From contig WRPG01000023.1 in NCBI GenBank assembly GCA_009773355.1, positions 1-64,000 on the forward strand: 64,000 nt of DNA, written 5' to 3'. The DNA is from Limisphaerales bacterium. GTDB taxonomy: Bacteria > Verrucomicrobiota > Verrucomicrobiia > Limisphaerales > SXTU01. The notes under the pieces are model-generated. The model had not been told where the DNA came from and searched no databases. It was given only the letters and a program-made list of their open reading frames with translations. The position numbers were made by a program, and so were the translations under genes. This document shows, in pieces, positions 47,719-62,192 of this stretch (the stretch's first letter is position 1; the number at the start of each line of letters is the position of its first letter).

Positions 47719-48400
47719 ACCGTCGTTCGCGGCGCGCTGGGGTTACATCGTGCGAAACGGGGTGCGTTTGCCACGCCAGTGGCGCGCGGCCTTGAGGCCG
47801 CTTCAGCGTGCGGCGGCGACGGGTTGATCGGACACCCGGTTTGCGCCCCACCTCGAAGCGGCGTGATCGCCGCGCTCCAAACGTCTTACACCGCCCACAG
47901 CGCATCGTCGTCGCCAAGGAACAGGCGGTCGTTGGCTCGGAAAGCCGCGTCGCCCGCTCGGAATGGCCGGTCGTCGCCTCGGACTGGCTCATCGCCCTGT
48001 CGGAACGCGCACTCGACCGGTCGAACTGGGTCATCGCCCGGTCGGAATGGCCTCTCGACCGCTCGGAACGCCTCGTCGTCGCCTCGAAGTGGGCTGTCCT
48101 TCAGTCAGAATGCCTCATCCTCCACGTCAATGACCCATTCCGACTCGTCAACGGCCCATTCCGAGCGGTAAATGAGCCAGTTCGAGCGGTAAATTGGTCA
48201 GTCCGAGCGGTAAATGGAGCAGTTCTGGCGGTGGACGAGCCATTCCGACCGGTCAAGACCCCGTTCCGAGCCGTCAACGACCCATTCCGAGGCGTCAACG
48301 AGGCGTTTCGAGAGGTAAATCAGGTATTCCGGGCCGACGAAGGGTTGCTCTGGCAGGGCCATCAGCCATCCATGCGTGACCGTCGTTCGCGGCGCGCTGA
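47719..48400. other. Segment bounded by identical 21-bp direct repeats
   Basis: A 21-bp sequence beginning ACCGTCGTTCGCGGCGCGCT occurs at 47719-47739 and again, identical, at 48380-48400, 661 bp apart. Between them lie about 200 bp with small palindromes (e.g. GAAGCGGCGTGATCGCCGCG) and the twenty-unit array. The repeat length equals the array period, but the sequence is not a unit of the array. No gene that I can support lies inside; long open frames there arise from the 21-bp period. Confidence 0.7.
47937..48356. repeat. Twenty-unit 21-bp array with an internal inversion
   Basis: Exactly 420 bp, 20 consecutive 21-bp units with no phase slip. Units 1-9 (47937-48125) follow TCGGAATGGCCTCTCGACCG; units 10-20 (48126-48356) follow GTCAACGACCCATTCCGAGC, whose reverse complement is the same unit family. 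Copies are imperfect. Because the period is a multiple of three, several frames on both strands stay open and give heptapeptide repeats (SEWPLDR-like then VNDPFRA-like). The halves could fold on each other as a large hairpin or cruciform. No spacers, so not a CRISPR. Confidence 0.9.
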
Positions 48401-56296: not shown

Positions 56297-57274
56297 CTAC
56301 TTCGCCCCGTGCCGCTCCGCGAGCTGCCCGGCGCCCGCGCGCACCGCCTCCACCAGCTCACGCGGCGCCACGGCCACCGCGCGCCCCGCCCAAGCGAGCA
56401 CCCAGCGCTCGACTTCCACCAGACTCGACAGCTTCATCCGCAGCTCCAGCCCGCCGTCGGGGAGGTCCGTCGCCTTCTGTGACGCGTGCCAGCGCTTCTC
56501 GCGGATGTAGTCCGCGATGGACGCATCGAACCGGATGCAAACCTCGAACTCCCCCTCCGCCGAATGCACGCCGAAGCTGTCGCGCAGCCGCTTCTCCAGG
56601 GAAAACTTCTGCGGCCGCGCAAAAGTCTTGCCCGTCTCCCGCACTTCCGAAATGCGCGCCGGCGCGAAGGTCCGCACATCCTTCCGCCCGTGGTCGAACG
56701 CGAAGAGGAACCACTCGCCGTTGATGTTCGCGAGATGATACGGGTCCACCACGCGGCGGTCGGGCGCGGTCTGGCCGGGCTTGCGGTAGGCGAGTTCGAG
56801 CTGCCGGCGCGCGGCGGTGGCCTTGGCCAGCACGTCGAACACGCCGAGGTTCAGGATTGGCTCCGCCGTCGTGCGGAACGAGATGGTCTGCTCCACGTCC
56901 GCGAGGTTCAGCGAGATGGTGTCGGGCAGCGCCTGCTCCATCTTCCTGATGGCCGAGAGCAGCGGCTTCTCGAAGCTCGTGCCGCGATATTGCTGCAACG
57001 CTTTCTCCGCCACGATCAGCGCGAACAGCTCGCCCTCCGTGATTTGGAACGTGGGGAACGCGCTGACCTCCTCGGTGTAGCGGTAGCCGTTGCGCAACTT
57101 GTCGAACTCGATGGGCAGCCCCAGCCGGTCGCGCATGAACTCCACGTCGCGATAAATGGTCTTCGTCGTGACCTCCAAGTCCGCCGCGAGCGAGTTCGCG
57201 TTCGGGCAGCCGCCCGCGTGCAACGCCTGGTGGATGCGCTGCATCCGCTCCAGCGGCGGACGCGACAGCGGCAT
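56297..57274 (-). CDS. HTH/WYL-domain transcriptional regulator
   Basis: 325 residues. N-terminal winged HTH (about 10-65: RMQRIHQALHAGGCPNANSL, ADLEVTTKTIYRDVEFMRDR), then a WYL domain (about 150-230; variant FLFAFDHGRKDVRTFAPARI) and a WCX-like C-terminus (FDASIADYIREKRWHASQKA). Such regulators often sense nucleic acids or small ligands and act on DNA repair or defence genes. Start 57274 (MPLSRPPLERMQRIH) is chosen; the upstream extension is repeat-like. Convergent with secA, with only 23 bp between stops. Confidence 0.88.
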   Translation of the reverse strand: MPLSRPPLERMQRIHQALHAGGCPNANSLAADLEVTTKTIYRDVEFMRDRLGLPIEFDKLRNGYRYTEEVSAFPTFQITEGELFALIVAEKALQQYRGTSFEKPLLSAIRKMEQALPDTISLNLADVEQTISFRTTAEPILNLGVFDVLAKATAARRQLELAYRKPGQTAPDRRVVDPYHLANINGEWFLFAFDHGRKDVRTFAPARISEVRETGKTFARPQKFSLEKRLRDSFGVHSAEGEFEVCIRFDASIADYIREKRWHASQKATDLPDGGLELRMKLSSLVEVERWVLAWAGRAVAVAPRELVEAVRAGAGQLAERHGAK

Positions 57275-57366
57275 GGCAACAGGCTTCTTCGGCACGCCGG
57301 CAGGATTGGGCAACCCGGCGCGCAAGGCCAGCGGGGAAAACGCCCGTGACCGGCAAGCCATTCGTG

Positions 57367-57723: not shown

Positions 57724-59415
57724 TCACTTGCCCTGCTCACGGTCCACCCACTCGCGGCGTTCATCCCACTTGCGTTTGGGTTTGTTCTTCCGGATGCGAT
57801 GCACCTGGCAGCAAGAGTAGGGTTGACCTTTGCGCAGCCCGCTCAGGTGCAGGTCCGTGGGCCGACCGCACACCCAGCAAAGGCCTTGGGCGCGCCGGCT
57901 CTTGGGAAATTGAGCCAGGACTTGCTCCAAGGATGCCGGAACAGGGGTGTCGGCAGCCTTGCGGATCAAGTCGCTTCGCCGCTGCTGATATTCATTCATC
58001 TCCTGGCGGTGCCGGGCGCAGAACGTCTGCGGCTTGCCTTTGTTTTTGCCTGTCAAGTTCACCTGGGCAGGCAGGCCGCATTTGAGGCAAAGCCCGGCAC
58101 GCCGAAGTTCGTCATAAGTGCGCCCCTGTCGCCAGAGGCGATCCAGTTGCTCAGGTGACTCGGCTGCATAGGAGAGGGAGGGAACCCGCTGGACGCAGCC
58201 GTAGAGCTTGCGGATGTATTCACGGCGTTTGGCCATGTGTTGGGCACAGAACATGGCGGGCCGCCCTTTGCGCTGGCCCCAAAGGTGGATCAGCGCGGTT
58301 TGACCGCAGGACACGCATAGGCCCTGCTGACGCCGCTGTCGCTGTAGCTCGGTCTTCGATTGCTTCTGCTTGGGCGGGGGCAGGCGATCAGGGGAGGCGA
58401 TGCCGGCCGCGATTTCCGCCTCATAGGAGAGGCTGGGCATCCGTCTGATGGTGCCATTCTTTAGGCGTCCCGTTTCGCGATACTCGACGAGATGCTGAAG
58501 GCAGTAGTGGGCGGCCTTGCCCTGCCGCTGGCCTTTGGTATGACGCAGCGCAGGCTGGCCGCACTTGACGCACAGCCCTTGGGCGCGCCGATCGGCGTGG
58601 GTGAATGGGGGGAACTGGGACATGCCTTGAGCCGCAGCCAGCTCATACGCCTGGACGAGACTGGGACGGGCACGCAGTCCCTTGCTTTTTCCATGGGTTC
58701 GTTGATGGATCTGCCGGGCATGGACGAGGCATAAGTTGGCGGGCTGGCCTTTGCGCTTTCCCCAGAGATGGACGAGGGCGGGCTGGCCACAACGGAGGCA
58801 AAGCCCTTGTTCGCGCCACTGTTTAACCTGCAATTTACGCGCGGCCCGGCCCACACCAGGCGGGGGCATCCCCGGAGTCTGCCGCCCGGCCTGATGTTCT
58901 GCCTGATAGGAGGGGCTGTTCTTGCGCCGGACGGCACCGTCGCGCTGGCGTTCATGCTCGCGGGACTGGATGCGATGATCGAGACAAAACTCAGAGTATT
59001 CACCCGCTCGTGGGCCGCTCTCATGACGCATGGCGGGCTGGCCGCACCAGAGGCAGATGCCGGCGCGGCGCTTTTGCAGCCGCCGCTCGCGCATTTTATC
59101 CAGGTGAACCAGACAGTAGCTGGAAGTTTTTCCCTGGCGGGGGCCGTCGGGAAAAACGAACGCGGGCTGGCCGCACCAGATGCAGCAGCCGAACCGGCGC
59201 CGGTCGGCGATCGGGGGCTTGGAGGAGCGCGGGCGGCGGAGCTTGGGGATGTAGGCCGCACACTTGGCCGCGCGCCGTTGCTCCATGTGCGTGGCACACA
59301 GGTTGGAAGGCTGCCCTTGCCGGGGGCCGTTGAGATGAATGAACGCGGGTTGGCCGCATCTGACGCAGAGACCCTGGCGGCGGCGCTCGGTTTGATTCAA
59401 ACTTTGCTGCTTCAC
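57724..59415 (-). CDS. Protein with eight tandem C-x2-C-x19-C-x2-H zinc modules
   Basis: 563 residues, GTG start at 59415. Eight modules of the form RR-x3-GLCxxCGQPAxxHxxG then xxxGxxxxxCxxH. First Cys of each: residues 17, 78, 121, 206, 282, 367, 443, 513. In all eight the second Cys and the third Cys are exactly 20 residues apart, and the last ligand is always His. Between later modules a second conserved stretch (PSLSYEAE-like) recurs at about 166, 251, 327 and 412, so the full repeat is about 76-85 residues. Very basic; no signal peptide, no TM, no enzymatic motif. Nucleic-acid binding is a guess. No family name recognised. Confidence 0.85.
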   Translation of the reverse strand: MKQQSLNQTERRRQGLCVRCGQPAFIHLNGPRQGQPSNLCATHMEQRRAAKCAAYIPKLRRPRSSKPPIADRRRFGCCIWCGQPAFVFPDGPRQGKTSSYCLVHLDKMRERRLQKRRAGICLWCGQPAMRHESGPRAGEYSEFCLDHRIQSREHERQRDGAVRRKNSPSYQAEHQAGRQTPGMPPPGVGRAARKLQVKQWREQGLCLRCGQPALVHLWGKRKGQPANLCLVHARQIHQRTHGKSKGLRARPSLVQAYELAAAQGMSQFPPFTHADRRAQGLCVKCGQPALRHTKGQRQGKAAHYCLQHLVEYRETGRLKNGTIRRMPSLSYEAEIAAGIASPDRLPPPKQKQSKTELQRQRRQQGLCVSCGQTALIHLWGQRKGRPAMFCAQHMAKRREYIRKLYGCVQRVPSLSYAAESPEQLDRLWRQGRTYDELRRAGLCLKCGLPAQVNLTGKNKGKPQTFCARHRQEMNEYQQRRSDLIRKAADTPVPASLEQVLAQFPKSRRAQGLCWVCGRPTDLHLSGLRKGQPYSCCQVHRIRKNKPKRKWDERREWVDREQGK

Positions 59416-59526
59416 GGTGCTGAGGTGACGACAGTGGCTAAAGCGGGAGAAAAAATCACGCCGATTTCGGTTCAGTCACCATCGTGGCGGGCGCGTCCTC
59501 CACCAAGTGCGCCTAGTTCCACTTTT

Positions 59527-59545
59527 GCGGGGCTTGAAGCCCCGC
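59527..59545. promoter_or_regulatory. Perfect 19-bp palindrome between divergent genes
   Basis: GCGGGGCTTGAAGCCCCGC, 9-bp arms around one base. In the 160-bp region between the starts of the zinc-module gene (minus) and the NHL gene (plus), so an operator or the 5'-end hairpin of the NHL transcript; not followed by T residues, so not a terminator. Confidence 0.4.
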
Positions 59546-59575
59546 TCACTTCACTGCGTCCACTTCCGACACAAC

Positions 59576-60703
59576 ATGAACTCCAGCCATTATCTCTTCC
59601 CCCGTCGTTTGACCCGCCGCGATTTCCTCAAGGCTTCCTCCGCTGCGCTCGCGGTCGCCCCGCTGGCGGGCGCGCAGCAAGCCGCGCCGCAGCGCATCGG
59701 GTCGGGGAAGTGGACTTACACGTTGGATGAGGCGTGGGGCCGGTTGCCGGCGGGCATGAAATACGGGCTGGGGTGCGGGGTGGTCGTGGATGCGCGCGAC
59801 AATGTCTATGTGACCTCGCGGTCGGCCAGTCCGTGCGTGGCGGTGTTCAGCCGCGAGGGGAAATTGCTGGAGACGTGGAGCAAGGATTTCGGGGACAAGA
59901 TCGGCGGCTACTCGGCGGACCAGGTTTCCAGCACGGCGCATTGCCTGTATTGGAGCAAGGAGGGGAAGGACGAGTTTCTTTACTTCACGGAGAACGTGGC
60001 GTCCGGCGGGAAGGACGGGGAGGGGAAGGACAGGCCGGCGTTGGGCAAGCGGGTCTACAAGACGGACCTCAAGGGCAAGGTGCTTTACACCATCGGCAAC
60101 GTGGCGAAGGAGTCGGGCACGTCGCAGAAGTTCGACTGGACCAATCCGACGGATGTGGCGGTGGCGTCGAACGGGGATATTTACGTGGTGGATGGTTATG
60201 GCAGCCAGCGCGTGAGCCGGTTCGACAAGAACTGGAAGCATCTCAAGACGATTGGCGGTCGCGCGGACAAGGACGCGCCCAAGGGCGCGAACGCGCCACA
60301 CGGGACGTTCAGCACTTGCCACGGCATCTGGGTGAGCACGGTCGGGACTGAGCCGGAGATCTTCATCGCCGACCGGGCGAACGGGCGGATTGAGATTTTC
60401 TCGCTCGACCTCGTGTATCGCCGGACAATTCCTGACTTCAAGGCGCCGTGCTGCTTCTATCAGCACGCCGGGCACCTCTATGTGCCGGAGCTGGGCGCGC
60501 GGGTGAGCATCGTGGACAGCACGGGCAAGATCGTGGCGCGGCTGGGCGACGGCGCGGCGGTGCCGAAGGAGCGGAAAGACAAGCGCGTGGAGTTCATCGC
60601 GCCGCACGCGCTGACGGTGGACTCGCGGGGCGACCTCTACGTGGTGGAGTGGGTGCCGCAGGGGCGGGTGCGGAAGTTCAAGCACACGCCGCAGGCGGCG
60701 TGA
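59576..60703 (+). CDS. NHL-repeat six-bladed propeller protein, Tat-exported
   Basis: 375 residues. Twin-arginine signal RRLTRRDFLKASSAALAVAP (RRDFLK). Mature part is a six-bladed NHL propeller: GCGVVVDARDNVYVTSRSAS, NPTDVAVASNGDIYVVDGYG, GIWVSTVGTEPEIFIADRAN, PHALTVDSRGDLYVVEWVPQ. No heme or obvious catalytic residues. Similar proteins of this phylum accompany carbohydrate-active enzymes. Start 59576 (MNSSHYLFPRRLTRR) is chosen for the Tat signal. Confidence 0.85.
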   Translation: MNSSHYLFPRRLTRRDFLKASSAALAVAPLAGAQQAAPQRIGSGKWTYTLDEAWGRLPAGMKYGLGCGVVVDARDNVYVTSRSASPCVAVFSREGKLLETWSKDFGDKIGGYSADQVSSTAHCLYWSKEGKDEFLYFTENVASGGKDGEGKDRPALGKRVYKTDLKGKVLYTIGNVAKESGTSQKFDWTNPTDVAVASNGDIYVVDGYGSQRVSRFDKNWKHLKTIGGRADKDAPKGANAPHGTFSTCHGIWVSTVGTEPEIFIADRANGRIEIFSLDLVYRRTIPDFKAPCCFYQHAGHLYVPELGARVSIVDSTGKIVARLGDGAAVPKERKDKRVEFIAPHALTVDSRGDLYVVEWVPQGRVRKFKHTPQAA

Positions 60704-60892: not shown

Positions 60893-61786
60893 ATGAAACT
60901 GTTTGCCCTCCTACTCGCCACGCTCACCACCACCACGCTGTTCGCACAACCGAAGGACGCCTTCCCGCTCTGGCCCAAGGACACGCCCGGCGCACTGGGC
61001 GCGGACCCCGTGAAGGATATTCCCACGCTCACGCCGTTCTTCCCGGCGGCGGACAAGGCCACGGGGGCCTCGGTCGTGATTTGTCCGGGCGGCGGTTACG
61101 GCGGGCTGGCGTCGCACGAGGGACGCGACTACGCGCTGTGGCTGAACGCGCATGGCATCGCGGGCTTCGTGCTCAAGTATCGCCTCGGCTCGGCGGGCTA
61201 CCGGCATCCGGCGATGATGAACGACGTGAACCGCGCGGTGCGTTACGTGCGCGCGCACGCGGGCGAGTGGAAGCTGGACGCCAAGCGCATCGGCGTGATG
61301 GGCAGCAGCGCCGGCGGGCACCTGGCCTCGACGGCGGTGACGCACTTCGACGCCGGCAAGCCGGACGCGGCGGACATGGTGGAGCGCGCGAGCAGCCGGC
61401 CGGACTTGGGGATACTTTGTTACCCCGTCATCACGATGGGCGCGAACACGCACAACGGCTCGAAGAACAACCTGCTGGGCAAGGAGCCGTCTCCCGAACT
61501 GGTGAAGCTCATGTCCAACGAGCTGCAAGTGACCAGGAGCACGCCGCCGTGTTTCGTCTGGCACACCTGGGAGGACAAGGGCGTGAAGATCGAGAATGCC
61601 ATGGAGTTCGCCGCCGCCTTGCAGCGGAACAACATTCCTTTCGACTTGCACGTTTATCAGAAAGGCCCGCACGGCATCGGTCTGGGCGTGAAGGGCTGGG
61701 ATCCGGAGAAGACGCCGCTCTCCGCGCTGCATCCGTGGACGCATGACCTGGCCGTGTGGCTCAAGGTGCAGGGTTTTGCGAAGTGA
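60893..61786 (+). CDS. Secreted alpha/beta-hydrolase (BD-FAE/acetylxylan-esterase-like)
   Basis: 297 residues. Signal peptide MKLFALLLATLTTTTLFAQP. Oxyanion-hole motif VICPGGGYGGLASHEGRDYA, nucleophile elbow IGVMGSSAGGHLAS, Asp region CFVWHTWEDKGV and His in KGPHGIGLG give a full Ser-Asp-His triad. This is the family of small esterases that deacetylate xylan or release ferulate. Start 60893 (MKLFALLL) gives the signal peptide. Probably periplasmic carbohydrate esterase. Confidence 0.9.
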   Translation: MKLFALLLATLTTTTLFAQPKDAFPLWPKDTPGALGADPVKDIPTLTPFFPAADKATGASVVICPGGGYGGLASHEGRDYALWLNAHGIAGFVLKYRLGSAGYRHPAMMNDVNRAVRYVRAHAGEWKLDAKRIGVMGSSAGGHLASTAVTHFDAGKPDAADMVERASSRPDLGILCYPVITMGANTHNGSKNNLLGKEPSPELVKLMSNELQVTRSTPPCFVWHTWEDKGVKIENAMEFAAALQRNNIPFDLHVYQKGPHGIGLGVKGWDPEKTPLSALHPWTHDLAVWLKVQGFAK

Positions 61787-61837
61787 CCGCGCCGCTTGAC
61801 TCGTCCGGCGAGGTGGCGGACAGTCCGCCCGTTGGCC

Positions 61838-62192
61838 GGGGGCGCACTGGTTTCGACTTGGGAGATGCGCCAGAGGCGGCATGCCGAGGACGGTTCGTTG
61901 GCCTCGTTAATCATCGAACCAAAACATAAGAGCTAACGAAGAGTTGGCCCTCGCGGCCTAAACCACCGCGACGTTCACCGACAGACACCTGCTATGTCGA
62001 GTGAACGCCACTTGCAGGCATGGCTGAAGGCGGAGACCGCGCGCCGGCAGCCGAGAACATCTCATGCGGACTAAGCAGCGGGTCTCGAGTTCAGGTGCCA
62101 TCCCGCAGCCGACAAATCTGCCTGGACTAAGCATGTAGTCGCGGCTGGTAATTCTGCCAAGGACGGGGGTTCGACTCCCCCCGCCTCCACCA
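61838..62192 (+). ncRNA. ssrA: Transfer-messenger RNA
   Basis: 5' end GGGGGCG (61838-61844) pairs with CGCCTCC (62182-62188); the tRNA-like domain has GCACTGGTTTCGACTTGGGA at the 5' side and GGGGGTTCGACTCCCCC as T arm, with encoded CCA (62190-62192). The tag frame starts with GCT at 61932 and reads A-N-E-E-L-A-L-A-A then TAA (61959-61961), so the tag is (A)ANEELALAA. Pseudoknot-rich segment follows. A TTGACT box at 61796 with a weak GACAGT at 61819 may be the promoter. Rescues stalled ribosomes with SmpB. Confidence 0.97.

Follow-up and report, generated by a model that had tools for sequence, protein, structure and literature searches.

Cysteine- and histidine-rich modules that end in C-x2-H make up the EsV-1-7 repeats of brown algae and their virus. 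A bacterial zinc domain of comparable ligand order is the N1 domain of ClpG, in which the metal is held by C6, C9, C31 and H34, V17 and L21 bind protein aggregates, and at least four copies per ring are needed for high activity (PMC10641755). N1 is a single domain carried on an AAA+ ring, and the N-terminal zinc domains of ClpE and McsA are grouped with it. A further point of reference, LIC10235 of Leptospira, is entered in two papers simply as a hypothetical protein (PMC8638967, PMC5979558). The protein described here is encoded in the window, by which we mean the whole stretch of 64,000 nucleotides analysed from contig WRPG01000023.1 of a Limisphaerales bacterium, and carries eight zinc modules in tandem. 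It is a real and well-formed, species-specific expansion of an unnamed family.

Eight zinc modules in one reading frame

The gene and the Cys/His cores of its modules are placed as follows.

57724..59415, minus strand: gene encoding the zinc array protein with its eight modules (563 aa), starting from a GTG at 59415
59287..59367, minus strand: core of module 1, residues 17-43, from the motif position
59104..59184, minus strand: core of module 2, residues 78-104, from the motif position
58975..59055, minus strand: core of module 3, residues 121-147, from the motif position
58720..58800, minus strand: core of module 4, residues 206-232, second half of super-repeat 3-4
58492..58572, minus strand: core of module 5, residues 282-308, with the PSLSYEAE linker next
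58237..58317, minus strand: core of module 6, residues 367-393, with the PSLSYAAE linker next
58009..58089, minus strand: core of module 7, residues 443-469, from the motif position
57799..57879, minus strand: core of module 8, residues 513-539, from the motif position

From the GTG the frame is open for 563 codons, and it is also open farther upstream. The array-gene frame has the best codon score among the six frames, and differences between modules occur at codon positions 1, 2 and 3 with frequencies of 0.39, 0.32 and 0.58, an order of third over first over second. On this codon-position bias and codon score, the frame is a real coding sequence. The product has a computed net charge of +71 and a pI of 10.6, so that the strong basicity claimed for it in an earlier note, made from the DNA letters, holds.

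Exactly eight C-x2-C-x19-C-x2-H motifs are present, starting at residues 17, 78, 121, 206, 282, 367, 443 and 513, against a mean of 0.003 and a maximum of 1 in 20,000 composition-preserving shuffles of the protein; the invariant spacing that the earlier note had described is thus borne out. The modules are 32-55% identical to one another, with all 32 ligands and the framework residues intact throughout. Besides the ligands, the invariant positions relative to the first cysteine are R(-5), G(-2), G(+4), G(+13) and G(+17), and an arginine occupies hairpin position +15 in seven of the eight modules. Charge per module ranges from about +2 to +9, and the hairpin tips are basic.

The intervening sequence is less uniform than had been reported. 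A recurrent PSLSYEAE motif between modules is clear in only three linkers, reading NSPSYQAE after module 3, PSLSYEAE after module 5 and PSLSYAAE after module 6; the linker that follows module 4 has a degenerate form (PSLVQAYE), and the remaining linkers have none. The linkers had also been said to vary, and the module-to-module spacings do differ (61, 43, 85, 76, 85, 76 and 70 residues), but not freely, as the run 85/76/85/76 forms a two-module super-repeat. Modules 3-4 align with modules 5-6 over approximately 145 residues, and this alignment together with the spacing indicates that the array grew in part by copying of a two-module block. A three-module alignment (A3) was discarded, MAFFT having aligned identical stretches.

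No Pfam family describes the array protein, the sole match above cut-off being a 12-residue partial match to TtuA_LIM_N, and the best NCBIfam model scores far under its cut-off, in agreement with the earlier statement that the family was not recognised. Nor does Pfam find an HNH catalytic motif or an AAA+ domain, as expected of a protein first described as lacking catalytic motifs; the only PHROG match covers 18 residues and falls on the knuckle. A PDB sequence search with the whole array protein returned nothing useful.

Homology to a small single-module family

Entry to the relatives of the array came through its x19 module profile (A4), which has ten rows, one of them (L119) a probable out-of-frame sequence. 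L119 shows the exact spacing and overlaps a longer, likely real open reading frame in another frame, for which it was set aside. When the marginal A4 matches within the order (E 0.001-0.01) were inspected, only L144 resembled a real relative. It is a protein of about 83-121 residues, in which one zinc module is followed by RRHWNAPSYHLSE, a segment that resembles the array linkers RRKNSPSYQAE and RRMPSLSYEAE, and it led to a family of small proteins. With L144 as query, matches were obtained in 35 other genomes of the order at E 0.01, though some of the weaker matches were not real. A profile built from nine clear members, without any window sequence (A5), places the family in 27 of 313 genomes of the order besides the window's own, with up to four copies each; the 388 genomes sampled across the phylum, mostly from outside the order, gave no match. 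Neither Pfam nor NCBIfam has a name for the family.

The members are very basic proteins of approximately 80-120 aa (for example L155, L166, L171 and L176), with a median net charge of +17 over about 88 residues. Their conserved parts are, in order, R-I-x-D-E-F-T-x-L-P-[IV]-S-R-Q-R-K-Y-Q-L-R, the zinc module, H-x-[IV]-x-A-R-E-R-x-R, G-x-x-R-R and S-x-SY. The pattern C-x2-C-x(8-10)-C-x2-H is kept in 35 of 36 distinct extracted members, none of which has a second module. The earlier note had held that loss of the ligands in close homologues would speak against its reading of the modules; all four are retained in those 35 relatives.

A5 matches all eight array modules for a total of 90.5 bits, against 6.1 for the best of 500 shuffles, and its alignment by hhalign with a profile of the window unit (A6) extends over 53 columns, module plus linker, at E = 2.6e-13. 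As judged from these profiles, the repeating unit of the array, module and linker together, has been shown to be homologous to the small single-module family. Since the alignment spans the linker, the PSLSYEAE-type motif belongs to the ancestral unit. Module 3 is the closest match to the family profile (35.6 bits), the match running on into the NSPSYQAE linker. Array and family share the four ligands in order, strong basicity, and an Arg-rich helix after the module followed by the S-x-SY linker, which in the array are clear after modules 3, 5 and 6. They differ in module number, eight against one, and in the loop, which is 8-10 residues long in the small family and 19 in all eight array modules; being common to all eight, the longer loop was probably fixed before the array expanded. 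The N-terminal motif R-I-x-D-E-F-T-x-L-x-[IV]-S-R-Q-R is missing from the array, in which the profile matches begin at position 21 or later, and for this reason we regard the array as a homologue of part of the small family rather than as a full member.

The small-family genes are mostly solitary among ordinary chromosomal genes, and no neighbours are conserved beyond pairs of loci. The clearest common neighbourhood seen is that of L182 and L191, from genomes of different families, in which the gene directly follows hldE-like and panB-like genes (names read from sequence). In size, basicity and solitary position among housekeeping genes, the family resembles small zinc ribosomal proteins, and the PDB search gave weak matches to eL37. 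Family and array might accordingly bind the ribosome or rRNA, the array being a ribosome-associated factor rather than a reader of DNA. We find this distinctly doubtful: a family present in 27 of 313 genomes, in up to four copies, and missing from most of the order is unlike a structural ribosomal protein, and the eL37 match is to the knuckle only (E 0.25).

Predicted fold and comparison with solved structures

Each module is predicted to consist of a helix, a zinc knuckle, a short hairpin and a second helix around one zinc with Cys-Cys-Cys-His ligands, as modelled by AlphaFold2 for one module with the other seven as alignment (pLDDT 87.5). The full-length model from the single sequence is of low confidence (mean pLDDT 48). 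Foldseek found nothing significant in the PDB, where the best hit was T4 endonuclease VII (E 0.5) followed by MYND-type domains; among viral models the top hit was to a 'double zinc ribbon' protein of a phage (probability 0.99, TM 0.67, E 0.19). By profile, the short-loop family has its best PDB match in the splicing-factor zinc protein PHF5A (E 0.003), a weak resemblance, whereas the entry nearest to the x19 profile is ClpG N1 (8p66, solved by NMR) at E 2.8e-4, a value that is approximate because one of the ten A4 rows, L119, is probably out of frame.

The x19 module and the N1 domain of ClpG and ClpK both have a CysCysCysHis zinc site, CGQPA after the knuckle, and a hairpin and then a helix, although N1 is spaced C-x2-C-x21-C-x2-H and the array modules keep x19. 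N1 also lacks both a module array and the S-x-SY linker, and the array lacks an AAA+ region. That the best solved-structure match binds protein aggregates counts against nucleic-acid binding, and it raises the alternative that the modules bind protein in the manner of ClpG, ClpE and McsA, through hydrophobic residues of the first hairpin strand, the array serving as a multivalent adaptor or scavenger of unfolded or aggregated proteins. The multivalent working of N1 (PMC10641755) would fit an array, and a hydrophobic residue (Leu) takes the place of V17 in five of the eight modules. The position of L21, however, is Arg in seven of the eight, the modules are strongly basic, and the closer relatives in the small family are extremely basic and have a much shorter hairpin; moreover, no AAA+ region is attached and none of the adjacent open reading frames was recognised as a clp gene. 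We therefore consider a protein-binding array unlikely.

Related modules in phages and other bacteria

As in the window protein, modules of the form R-x2-G-x-C-x2-C ... C-x2-[HC] occur in phage 'double zinc ribbon' and module-HNH endonuclease proteins (A0A8S5SE21, L052 and AnClar gp1), some of them in short arrays. In L052, three modules precede an HNH domain, a part that is 48-59% identical to phage genes mostly annotated as HNH endonuclease, and in AnClar gp1 of a Gordonia phage a single module stands ahead of the HNH domain. Compared with the window protein, the phage proteins have shorter loops and, in those seen, no more than about five modules, and some carry the HNH domain that the window protein lacks. 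Short module arrays were also seen in the phage protein L047 and in L033 from a Clostridia genome. The phage protein L085 has the exact 19-residue spacing and adjoins an apparent phage recombination operon, its gene roles having been assigned by eye. The proteins from these pattern scans were picked for likeness to the array modules, and their profile scores are therefore biased upward. A divergent relative on the minus strand of G090:C81 (L224) carries a Cys instead of the final His, giving a C-x2-C ending, and is possibly a bridge to the four-Cys modules of phages.

The NCBIfam model for LIC10235 (NF047605) reaches 59 bits when summed over seven stretches of the array, against a cut-off of 160, with single matches of at most 19.3 bits. 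About 40 positions at the C-terminal end of this 92-residue model match these seven stretches and also L085, the phage protein with the 19-residue spacing. EsV-1-7 (PF19114) matches over 13 residues at E 4.1 and 7.8 bits against a cut-off of 25, with a different spacing, and offers an analogy only.

The basicity of the modules, the extreme basicity of the small relatives and the joining of phage modules to HNH domains together make nucleic-acid binding plausible. The weak resemblance to PHF5A and the setting of L085 beside an apparent recombination operon point in the same direction. On balance we lean, by a modest degree, towards the array being a cytoplasmic multivalent nucleic-acid-binding protein.

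Distribution and genomic surroundings

Whole-protein relatives were found neither in phages, plasmids and viral contigs by direct protein searches nor in 97 related genomes, ten of them of the same genus, and the module profile, run against the 388 genomes sampled across the phylum, returned nothing but one half-module chance frame. Among the genomes examined, only a single species of the genus has the array gene. Two further sets of candidates were rejected: a match in G029 (E 2.6e-4) is a chance frame within another gene, and the 26 genome-contig matches to the DNA pattern for GLCxxCGQPA are mostly short or out-of-frame frames.

Two neighbours, which we treat as context and not as part of a system, flank the gene.

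56297..57361, minus strand: HTH_11/WYL/WCX regulator
59507..60703, plus strand: divergent neighbour gene, 94% identical in G001 and 86% in G007

All 11 genomes of the genus carry the WYL regulator, which is 84-92% identical in the ten congeners but has other surroundings there; the DNA flanking it matches the window's flanks in none of the ten, and this suggests that its neighbourhood is often rearranged. Next to the orthologues of both flanking genes the array gene is missing, and the DNA upstream of the divergent gene in G001 and G007 is without it. A search for an empty insertion site did not yield one, the flanking genes being conserved in the genus yet scattered; their conservation indicates that the contig is native to the genus.

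Elsewhere in the window, a tmRNA gene with the tag ANEELALAA lies at 61838-62192, about 1.1 kb past the end of the divergent neighbour, and is overlapped by a mechanically called open reading frame at 61657-61914. At 47907-48319, two arrays of approximately 21/42-bp units lie side by side and are apparently inverted relative to each other (CTCGGAATGGCC... and CCATTCCGAGCGGTAAATGAG...). Some 0.3 kb beyond them, the segment 48628-48758 is matched at 85-97% in the genus genomes G008 and G009, close to the WYL regulator. No tie between the zinc array and the 21-bp array (about 47.9-48.3 kb) was found in the genus loci compared, which are a small part of those genomes.

The composition of the array gene sets it apart, as its GC3 of 0.73 lies below the 0.86-0.91 of its neighbours and its codon score is low; on the GC3 difference the gene would be compositionally foreign or young. 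Occurring in one species and with atypical codon usage, it may be young and of little importance. Another reading sees it as an orphan, acquired or put together not long ago, that has no settled cellular role, such as decaying cargo of a mobile element, with which its absence from ten genomes of the same genus and from the sampled phylum, its low GC3 and codon score, and the failure of a simple scan to find a promoter-like site would all agree. We give this a low probability: all the ligands and the framework are intact in eight diverged modules whose differences are biased towards synonymous change, a combination that points to sustained selection.

A model for the array and its significance

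The sequences show that a unit of zinc module, Arg-rich helix and S-x-SY linker gave rise to the eight copies of the array, in part through duplication of a two-module block. For binding to nucleic acid, we propose that phosphate backbones may be touched by the Arg/Lys-rich tips of the hairpins and by the helix that follows C-x2-H. With eight such weak contacts, joined by flexible basic linkers, the protein would hold long DNA or structured RNA with high avidity but would select little, or only modestly, for sequence. Its single-module relatives would bind in the same way through one contact. A far more specific proposal, to which we assign only a slim chance, is that the protein represents a new kind of tandem zinc-module array in prokaryotes, each module making one contact as the array reads nucleic acid; it would have been built in one lineage from a widespread single-module ancestor and would form a natural bacterial counterpart of the poly-zinc-finger proteins of eukaryotes.

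These results connect what looked like an orphan to small basic zinc proteins that form an unnamed family, widely scattered in the order, and they make visible how a protein with one module has grown to carry an array of eight. Should the modules bind nucleic acid, comparison of the single-module relatives with the array could test directly how affinity or specificity increases with the number of modules in a bacterial zinc protein.
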